Of a DNA stretch of 64,000 nt, positions 2,817 through 5,558 are shown piece by piece (within the stretch, counting starts at the first letter, position 1; every line of letters starts with the position of its first letter). The stretch is from Myxococcales bacterium. Its GTDB lineage: Bacteria; Myxococcota_A; Polyangia; Polyangiales; Polyangiaceae. The notes beneath the pieces were generated by a model that ran no database searches, was not told the DNA's origin, and saw only the letters and a list, made by a program, of their open reading frames with translations. A program made the translations under genes and the position numbers. The stretch is from contig JAAFHV010000006.1 in assembly GCA_013297655.1 (NCBI GenBank), forward strand, positions 1 to 64,000, given 5' to 3'.

Positions 2817-3293
2817 ATGCGACGTTCTGCCCTTTCAATCTTCGTGCCTCTCGCGCTCGGGCTCGCGCTCGCGGCGTGCCGCGACGACCAAGATCCCGCC
2901 GGCGCGGCAGACCTATGGACGCGCGTGCAGAGCTCCGGCTACCGCGAGTGGCCGCGACCTCGCGGGTACAGCACGCGCGAGCCGAGCTTCACCCTCCACG
3001 GCGGCAGCGTCGACATCTTCCTGAACCCCACCCTCGCCGCCGCGCGGGGCAGCAGCACGTCGCTCGCGGAGTGGCCCGTGGGCTCGTTGGTCGTGAAGGA
3101 CGGCTACTCGGGAAACAGCGATTCGCTCTCGATCGTGGCGGTCATGGAGAAGCGCCAAGACGGCTGGTACTTCGCCGAGTACAGCGCCGATGGCAGCGTA
3201 CTTTTCTCGGGAAAGCCCAAGGTCTGCGTCGACTGCCACGACGCACGCAAGGACTACTCGGACTGGCTCTTCTCGGTCGAGCGACCGCGCTGA
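2817..3293 (+). CDS. Cytochrome P460-like haem lipoprotein
   Basis: 158 residues with a short hydrophobic leader and lipobox LALAAC (Cys21), so probably a lipoprotein facing the periplasm. The body has the P460-like pattern: FTLHGGSVDIFLNP, then SLAEWPVGSLVVKDGY, then MEKRQDGWYFAEYS, ending in a c-type haem motif CVDCH at about 137-141 close to the C-terminus. This architecture is that of the cytochrome P460 family, whose best-known members oxidise hydroxylamine. Many distant relatives have no known substrate. It starts 45 bases after nhaA on the same strand and may be co-transcribed. The haem motif is seen directly; the P460 call is pattern-based. Confidence 0.72.
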   Translation: MRRSALSIFVPLALGLALAACRDDQDPAGAADLWTRVQSSGYREWPRPRGYSTREPSFTLHGGSVDIFLNPTLAAARGSSTSLAEWPVGSLVVKDGYSGNSDSLSIVAVMEKRQDGWYFAEYSADGSVLFSGKPKVCVDCHDARKDYSDWLFSVERPR

Positions 3294-4200: not shown

Positions 4201-4210
4201 GAAACGTTTC
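4201..4210. promoter_or_regulatory. GAAACGTTTC palindrome upstream of the peptide-MNIO unit
   Basis: A perfect 10-base palindrome sits 24 bases before the proposed ATG of the small peptide gene. It is a candidate operator for that unit only by position; no regulator family is implied. Confidence 0.3.
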
Positions 4211-4233
4211 GGGCCTTGGTGCGTCGGACGAAC

Positions 4234-4443
4234 ATGCACCTCCCGTGGGTCCTCCTCGCTATCCTGAGCCCGTCGCCCTCGCTCGACGAGGCAAACGCAC
4301 ACGCGACGCCCCACGTCGTGGTGGCCGACGAGCCAACCCGTGAAGCCTCGACCCAAGGCACGCAAGTCGCGCAGCAGAAGCCGAAACCCAAGCCGAAGCC
4401 CAAGCCCGATCCGGACTACTGCCCTCCCTGCGGTCGCGGATGA
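4234..4443 (+). CDS. Small exported Lys-Pro/Cys peptide, putative RiPP precursor
   Basis: 69 residues from ATG 4234; an upstream in-frame start at 4216 would add six. Three parts are visible: a hydrophobic leader (MHLPWVLLAIL, with a possible cleavage after ANAHA near residue 24); a polar linker; and a Lys-Pro repeat (49-58) ending in DPDYCPPCGRG with Cys63 and Cys66. It overlaps the next gene by the ATGA tetranucleotide (4440-4443), so translation is probably coupled to the DUF692 enzyme. Known DUF692/MNIO substrates are short peptides modified at Cys, Asp or other residues, and the bufferin class carries Sec-type leaders. That this is the enzyme's substrate is inference from the coupling, the leader and the paired Cys. 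Alternatives are a metal- or haem-binding peptide, or a cell-wall-associated peptide. Confidence 0.7.
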   Translation: MHLPWVLLAILSPSPSLDEANAHATPHVVVADEPTREASTQGTQVAQQKPKPKPKPKPDPDYCPPCGRG

Positions 4444-5558
4444 CGGCGCGCTGCGCGGTCGCGCTCCACCCGGAGGACGATCTTCGCACGGCGCTCCTGC
4501 CCCTCTTCACCGAAGGCCGCGTCGACGCGGTCGAATGGACCTGGGAAGCAGGAGTGCCGGAGTGGCTCGACGCGCTCGTCGCGTTCTACGCGTCGAACCA
4601 TGCACTTTACACGCATCTCGTTGGCTTCCCGCTCTTCGGGGACGGCGCGTCGCTGCCGAGGAGGCTCGCGGAGATCGCGCGTCGTTCGAGGCAGCACCGG
4701 CCGCGCCACGTGACGGCGCACTACGGGCTCGTGCAAGCGGAGGGCTTCTCGGACATCGCGCCGCTCCCCCCCGTGCCGTGCGCGGAGGTGGTCTCGACCG
4801 GACGCGAGCGTCTCCTTCGTCTCGCGGACGCGGCGGAGTGCGCGGTCGGTGTCGAGAACCTCGCGTTCGCGTTTTCGCTCGACGACGTCGCGAGGCAGGG
4901 AGACTTGGTCGACTCGATGCTCCCGGATCAGGGATTTTTGCTGCTCGATCTGCACAACATCCACTGCCAAGCGATCACGTTCGAGAGGAGCCCGGAGGAG
5001 CTGCTCGCGCGGTACCCGCTCGAGAAGGTGCGCGAGATTCACCTGTCTGGCGGGCGCACCACGTACCCGAAGGTGGACCCGCGGCCCTTCCGCCGTGACA
5101 CCCACGACGACGCGGTGCCGGCGGAGGTGCTCGCGCTCCTCGATGTGGCGCTCGCGCGCTGCCCCGCGGTGGAGGTCGTGTGCCTCGAGCGCCTCGGCGG
5201 CACCCTGGCGACGAAAGAAGCGAAAGAAGGCCTCGTCCGCGATTTTCGTGCGATGCGAGAGCGGGTGGCCGAGCCCAGCCTCGACCTTCGCGCGCGCGCG
5301 TATCTCCCGCTCGACATCGCGCTGCCCTCCGTTCCTGCGCGCGTCCTCCGTGACTTCGAGTCCAAGCTCGTGACGGTTCTCCGCGCTGCGCCCTCGGTCG
5401 AGCACGCGAAGAGCGCGCTCCGCGACCTCGCCCACGAGCCCACCCTCGCCGCCTTCGTGGCGCGTATGGAGCCGCGCGCGATCGAGGTCGCGATGGAAAT
5501 CGAGAAGCGTTGGGCCGTTCCCGCGCTCGACTCCCACGCGATCGCGGACGACGAATGA
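4440..5558 (+). CDS. DUF692/MNIO-family non-haem iron oxidase
   Basis: 372 residues. The family has a TIM barrel with two or three iron ions and oxidatively modifies peptide side chains in RiPP pathways (MbnB, TglH, ChrH, BufB). The likely metal-ligand blocks appear in family order: YTHLVGFPLFGDG (His59), HVTAHYGL (His94), VGVENLAF (Glu139-Asn140), LLDLHNIHCQA (Asp170, Asn173), EIHLSGG (His201), DTHDDAVP (Asp220, His222) and VVCLER (Glu250). After about residue 285 a helical extension of roughly 85 residues follows, rich in Ala, Leu and Glu. There is no separate DUF2063-type recognition partner nearby, so the extension may take that role. The gene starts inside the stop codon of the small Cys peptide gene. 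The family call is firm; substrate and product are inferred. Confidence 0.87.
   Translation: MTARCAVALHPEDDLRTALLPLFTEGRVDAVEWTWEAGVPEWLDALVAFYASNHALYTHLVGFPLFGDGASLPRRLAEIARRSRQHRPRHVTAHYGLVQAEGFSDIAPLPPVPCAEVVSTGRERLLRLADAAECAVGVENLAFAFSLDDVARQGDLVDSMLPDQGFLLLDLHNIHCQAITFERSPEELLARYPLEKVREIHLSGGRTTYPKVDPRPFRRDTHDDAVPAEVLALLDVALARCPAVEVVCLERLGGTLATKEAKEGLVRDFRAMRERVAEPSLDLRARAYLPLDIALPSVPARVLRDFESKLVTVLRAAPSVEHAKSALRDLAHEPTLAAFVARMEPRAIEVAMEIEKRWAVPALDSHAIADDE

Follow-up and report, generated by a model that had tools for sequence, protein, structure and literature searches.

We found that two overlapping genes in the window (the whole 64,000-nt stretch of myxobacterial DNA analyzed here) very probably make up a two-gene, minimal RiPP cluster belonging to the ChrH/DybH subfamily, with a DybA-type reaction predicted by analogy and possible export of the peptide. 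The pair is a diverged member of the chryseobasin/DybA family rather than a new RiPP system, since two reports already describe this family (2023; PMC10214503) and its myxobacterial members (2025; PMC12636315). What stands out here is that the precursor lacks a lipobox Cys and carries a Lys-Pro arm, and that the enzyme keeps all of the likely ligands but has changes at 13 of the 64 positions conserved in the subfamily.

The 69-residue ORF and its ATGA overlap with a DUF692 gene, both proposed by an earlier sequence-only reading, were confirmed at 4234–4443 and 4440–5558 (Table 1). The ORF encodes MHLPWVLLAILSPSPSLDEANAHATPHVVVADEPTREASTQGTQVAQQKPKPKPKPKPDPDYCPPCGRG on the (+) strand, with the C terminus ...KPKPKPKPKPDPDYCPPCGRG, and its TGA (4441–4443) overlaps the ATG (4440–4442) of a 372-aa ORF; position 4201, the start given for the feature, is flank only. 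CPPCGRG followed directly by the stop codon (4420–4443), together with the ATGA overlap, is the arrangement expected of an adjacent precursor in the ChrH/DybH subfamily, whose CPxCGxG core motif is described for chryseobasin (PMC10214503) and DybA (PMC12636315). The small ORF is more than a chance frame. Specifically, the DNA pattern for CPxCGxG followed by TAA or TGA (TAG stops were left out) occurred once in the 9.9-Mb genome, at the precursor, with no matches to the reversed control in the same 9.9 Mb and none to the pattern itself on either strand of 10 Mb of simulated sequence with the dinucleotide make-up of the window; for these two stops, the genome holds no second cluster and no further CPxCGxG substrates. 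The G+C content at the three codon positions is coding-like in the ORF (0.70/0.53/0.80), unlike that of the preceding stretch (0.62/0.60/0.59). The NCBIfam model ChrA_rel_RiPP matched the C terminus weakly (E-value 0.087; 13.6 bits against a cut-off of 40 bits), and matches of the peptide to NCBIfam TonB models most likely reflect only the composition of the Lys-Pro arm. An upstream TTG start at 4216, which adds VRR, is possible and would give the signal a better charge, but we prefer the ATG at 4234 because it is homologous to the MHLP starts of relatives.

Table 1. Features of the precursor-enzyme pair and of unusual homologous loci (positions are those of the window unless a locus, L, is named)
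Feature	Location	Strand	Evidence
ChrA/DybA-like precursor peptide, 69 aa	4234–4443	+	C-terminal CPPCGRG = CPxCGxG; homologues upstream of enzyme
Hydrophobic segment at the N terminus, MHLPWVLLAIL...ANA, perhaps a weak Sec/SPI signal	4234–4299	+	MHLPxxLLxLL likeness; hydropathy
Lys-Pro arm, QKPKPKPKPKPD and edges	4375–4410	+	Same arm in L116/L065 and L119
Core motif CPPCGRG, predicted MNIO modification site	4420–4440	+	Motif definition and processing of the CPPCGMG variant (PMC12636315)
ChrH/DybH-subfamily MNIO enzyme, 372 aa	4440–5558	+	PF05114; NF050165; tree; structure model
C-terminal helical domain, residues about 290–360	5307–5519	+	Model helices; profile match
MNIO-dehydrogenase fusions	L003: 1486–3657; L120: 469–2607; L121: 1510–3618	+; −; +	
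MNIO-dehydrogenase fusions (continued)	L123: 1480–3594; L127: 1501–3636	+; +	
NHLP/PCAT-type locus	L113: 1029–6650, 8436–9239, 9641–10567; and L004: 1076–1447	+, −, +; +	
Obscuribacterales precursors	L080, L082, L086, L092, L094, L095		Upstream of MNIO
Split enzyme	L002: 729–1625 and overlapping ORF downstream	−	

The downstream gene encodes an MNIO enzyme that is a member of the ChrH subfamily, as judged from its NCBIfam score, the tree, and its C-terminal helical domain. The protein matched PF05114 (MNIO/DUF692; now named MbnB_TglH_ChrH in Pfam) with an E-value of 6.9e-22, and its best NCBIfam model was NF050165 (MNIO_ChrH; E-value 1.6e-67), whose score of 228 bits lies far below the equivalog cut-off of 600 bits but well above the scores for BufB (58 bits), HvfB (46 bits), and ApyH (27 bits). 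In a tree of 47 sequences, seven of them further MNIOs from its own order, the enzyme fell inside the ChrH clade (support 100/99) and apart from those same-order enzymes; its nearest row was L002, also of the same order (support 83/88), and its branch is long (1.33). The AlphaFold2 model (pLDDT 92.9, pTM 0.92) predicts a barrel in which strands alternate with helices and, after it, a C-terminal helix bundle at residues 300–359 (helices 300–316, 320–330, 334–341, and 345–359), with TglH and MbnB as the nearest solved folds. A profile from which the window sequence had been left out also matched residues 308–359 (E-value 1.7e-5, search space 1000), and PMC12636315 gives such an extra C-terminal helical domain as a mark of the ChrH subfamily. 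As the sequence-only reading had stated, all of the likely DUF692 metal-ligand residues are present: the subfamily-invariant H59, H94, E139, N140, D170, H172, N173, H201, D220, H222, and E250 are all kept, including those that are likely, from their place in the MNIO family, to bind iron. However, the window enzyme departs from the subfamily at 13 of the 64 positions with at least 90% conservation; D36E, G60L, S64P, and N180T alter residues that are invariant in all 44 other sequences, and E93A adjoins the likely ligand His94. Only one other sequence of the set, L128, deviates comparably (14/65).

We compared the pair with 96 distinct homologous loci; a scan of a genome collection gave 80 loci, and order and phylum searches added myxobacterial ones. 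Absence of the small ORF beside orthologous enzymes would, on the sequence-only reading's own terms, have counted against it, but 91 of the 96 loci do have an ORF ending in CGxG upstream of the enzyme gene, with none on the opposite strand. The pairing of a RiPP precursor with an MNIO expected to act on the two Cys residues is likewise supported. The precursor of Taibaiella (L076) ends in exactly CPPCGRG and has a KPKP stretch, and two myxobacterial precursors share both the MHLP start and the Lys-Pro arm with the window peptide, the arm being KPKPKPKPAPPPP in L116 (the same locus as L065; MHLPLALLSLL...KPKPKPKPAPPPPKPPPNPDPCLGCGMG) and KPKPKPKPEPKPQP in L119 (MHLPLTLLALL...KPKPKPKPEPKPQP...DPCPACGMG). 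A true ChrA/ChrH pair in L032, which passes its own models (704 bits for ChrH and 124 bits for ChrA), likewise has a Lys/Pro-rich middle in its ChrA. The Lys-Pro/CPPC peptide is therefore not a new precursor type, and neither the proposed new precursor family nor a core outside the known families could be upheld: CPPCGRG is the CPxCGxG of the ChrA/DybA type, the enzyme belongs to the ChrH subfamily, and a genuine ChrA has a Lys-Pro-rich arm. A plasmid origin was considered and rejected, the only plasmid record matched being from Hymenobacter at 35% identity.

The immediate neighbors of the pair encode a cytochrome P460, a carbonic anhydrase, an MDR dehydrogenase, and, on the opposite strand, an unassigned protein of 462 aa. 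There is no known RiPP partner among them, nor ChrI (DUF1772), ChrE, or ChrP, and no DUF2063 partner was found among the neighbors scanned. The putative cytochrome P460 gene, at 2817–3293 on the (+) strand, lies just upstream of the RiPP pair and between an NhaA-like antiporter gene and the carbonic anhydrase gene, and its product ends with a CxxCH site.

According to PMC12636315, the ChrH subfamily spans Bacteroidota, Cyanobacteriota, Myxococcota, and Planctomycetota, with precursors that end in CPxCGxG. DybA/DybH of Dyadobacter and the related CPxCGxG clusters described there resemble the window pair in their two-gene layout and C-terminal core, and DybH resembles the window enzyme in having a C-terminal helical domain and no partner protein. 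DybA, with its lipobox Cys, is made into a DAG lipopeptide, whereas the window peptide lacks a third Cys and bears the Lys-Pro arm; its tail ends in GRG instead of GMG, and its enzyme shares ~35% identity with DybH-type members. The ChrA/ChrH/ChrI system (PMC10214503) shares with the window a non-lipobox N terminus, which in ChrA is an SPI signal, as well as a Lys/Pro-rich middle, a CPxCGxG tail, and the enzyme subfamily. Assignment to chryseobasin in the strict sense was nevertheless rejected, as the window pair lacks ChrI, ChrE, and ChrP and stays below the equivalog cut-offs for both enzyme (ChrH, 228 of 600 bits) and precursor (ChrA-related, 13.6 of 40 bits). ArlA/ArlH is a Myxococcota member of the same subfamily, but the CPACGMMM motif of ArlA is embedded while that of the window is C-terminal (PMC12636315).

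The same source reports that DybH recognizes the seven-residue motif alone, even on GFP, needs no partner protein, and oxidizes its substrate by four electrons (−4 Da), yielding a macrocycle between the two former Cys residues, a hydantoin, and one free thiol, while ChrH adds an S-methyl group (+10 Da overall). The window pair has the same parts as DybA/DybH and is therefore best predicted to share their core reaction, and because a CPPCGMG variant of DybA was also processed to −4 Da (PMC12636315), a −4 Da product is the best prediction for the window tail; no test of Arg in CGRG was seen in the parts of that report covered here. In the proposed mechanism, the precursor would be made in the cytoplasm, and the MNIO would bind the C-terminal CPPCGRG directly, with neither partner protein nor leader recognition. 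Its multi-iron center would use O2 for the four-electron oxidation of the tail, linking the sulfur of the first Cys to the former second Cys as a macrocycle, forming a hydantoin, and leaving one free thiol. The expected product is thus neither the thioamide/oxazolone suggested earlier nor a bufferin-type chelator, and S-methylation is not predictable. If the N-terminal segment works as a Sec/SPI signal, the modified tail would be presented on the extended Lys-Pro arm outside the inner membrane.

The hydrophobic leader claimed at first is real but short, with a best 12-residue hydropathy of 1.76 (compared with 2.48 for the ChrA of L032) and no Lys or Arg at the ATG start. Its MHLPxxLLxLL start is common to the window peptide, L116, and L119 and partly resembles the MKLPxxLLxAI of DybA-type precursors. 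The segment being short, export is no more than plausible, and any cleavage would fall after ANA. The peptide contains no Cys outside CPPC; without a third there is no lipobox of the kind expected of a DAG-RiPP, lipidation is probably absent, and a DAG-lipoprotein reading was rejected. The Lys-Pro arm may, at a guess, act as a stiff, charged spacer.

Given the 13 changes among 64 conserved positions, E93A, and the long branch, the product could differ or the activity could be weak. It is possible, though we think it unlikely, that the diverged surroundings of the likely ligands (E93A, G60L, S64P, N180T) direct a different oxidation of CPPCGRG, the product being, e.g., S-methylated or a heterocycle that lacks the macrocycle; under this same reading, the window, L116, and L119 would make up a distinct, Lys-Pro-armed and non-lipidated functional branch in which the modified tail is displayed, e.g., across the wall or bound to it. 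Changes around the likely ligand histidines (E93A, G60L, and S64P) would fit such a shift, as would the fact that published members already differ (methylated ChrA, +10; DybA, −4; ArlA, a mixture; PMC12636315), but the motif keeps both of its Cys residues, its Pro, and its GxG, and the enzyme keeps every likely ligand residue. That the fast-evolving enzyme is losing its function in a decaying cluster, leaving the peptide unmodified, is quite improbable: the likely ligands are all retained, the frames are intact and coupled by ATGA, and the single CPxCGxG tail that the genome search turned up lies right beside its enzyme.

A bufferin- or oxazolin-like copper-binding peptide, which we rejected as highly improbable on family scores and neighbors, would share with the BufA/BufB/BufC system the MNIO superfamily and a Cys-containing, possibly exported peptide. 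Bufferins, however, involve another enzyme subfamily, a DUF2063 partner, another Cys motif, and thiooxazole chemistry; here, the BufB model reached 57.7 bits, whereas its cut-off is 310 and the ChrH score is far higher, no DUF2063 gene lay among the neighbors tested, neither EGKCG nor a bufferin Cys pattern is present, and the tree groups the enzyme with ChrH. The thioamide/oxazolone and thiooxazole products proposed by the sequence-only reading belong to other MNIO subfamilies, the characterized chemistry of CPxCGxG being macrocycle plus hydantoin, and we found no evidence in support of its metal-binding product.

Several ChrH-like relatives proved unusual. Five genomes of the same order encode an enzyme whose ChrH-like MNIO part is joined to a zinc-type MDR alcohol dehydrogenase, and these enzymes form one clade in the 47-sequence tree (support 98/89). 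All five adjoin lipoprotein-like precursors whose terminal motif has a single Cys, xxxCGRG, where CxxCGRG has two (RAACGRG, MAACGRG, PPPCGRG, VPACGRG, PVDCGRG, AANCGRG); with the first Cys missing, the known two-Cys macrocycle cannot form, and the chemistry should therefore differ. Elsewhere, a precursor with an NHLP leader (TIGR03793, 65.6 bits) that ends in GG-SGANCPLCGAG lies beside a ChrH-like enzyme in L004, and genes for HlyD and for a PCAT-type protein (tandem peptidase-C39/ABC) are close by, so that at L113/L004 ChrH-type chemistry is apparently routed through a PCAT-type export system. Targeted term searches of PMC10214503 and PMC12636315, supplements apart, brought up neither the dehydrogenase fusion nor a nitrile-hydratase-type leader. 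The large precursors of Obscuribacterales end in CG...WW...CGMG, with two Cys residues far apart and not in CPxC, and L117 and L118 have an embedded YC[AM]ACGLVAH... resembling the ArlA type beside a near-identical ChrH-like enzyme. The C-terminal helical domain, fused in the window, is a separate overlapping ORF in L002, L116, L119, L126, and L130, a split in myxobacteria that matches the one reported for Cyanobacteria (MelHc). Finally, the DybA/DybH-type cluster of L110, labeled Glaciecola amylolytica, groups with Bacteroidota and has precursors resembling those of Fluviicola, which reflects either transfer or a mislabeled assembly.

The window pair extends the chryseobasin/DybA-type peptides by a non-lipidated, Lys-Pro-armed myxobacterial form, and its natural CPPCGRG substrate and diverged enzyme offer material for structure-function work. 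The ChrH subfamily also adjoins unexpected substrates, i.e., single-Cys lipoproteins with an enzyme-dehydrogenase fusion and an NHLP leader with a PCAT-type exporter, and for finding new chemistry these loci are more promising than the window pair.
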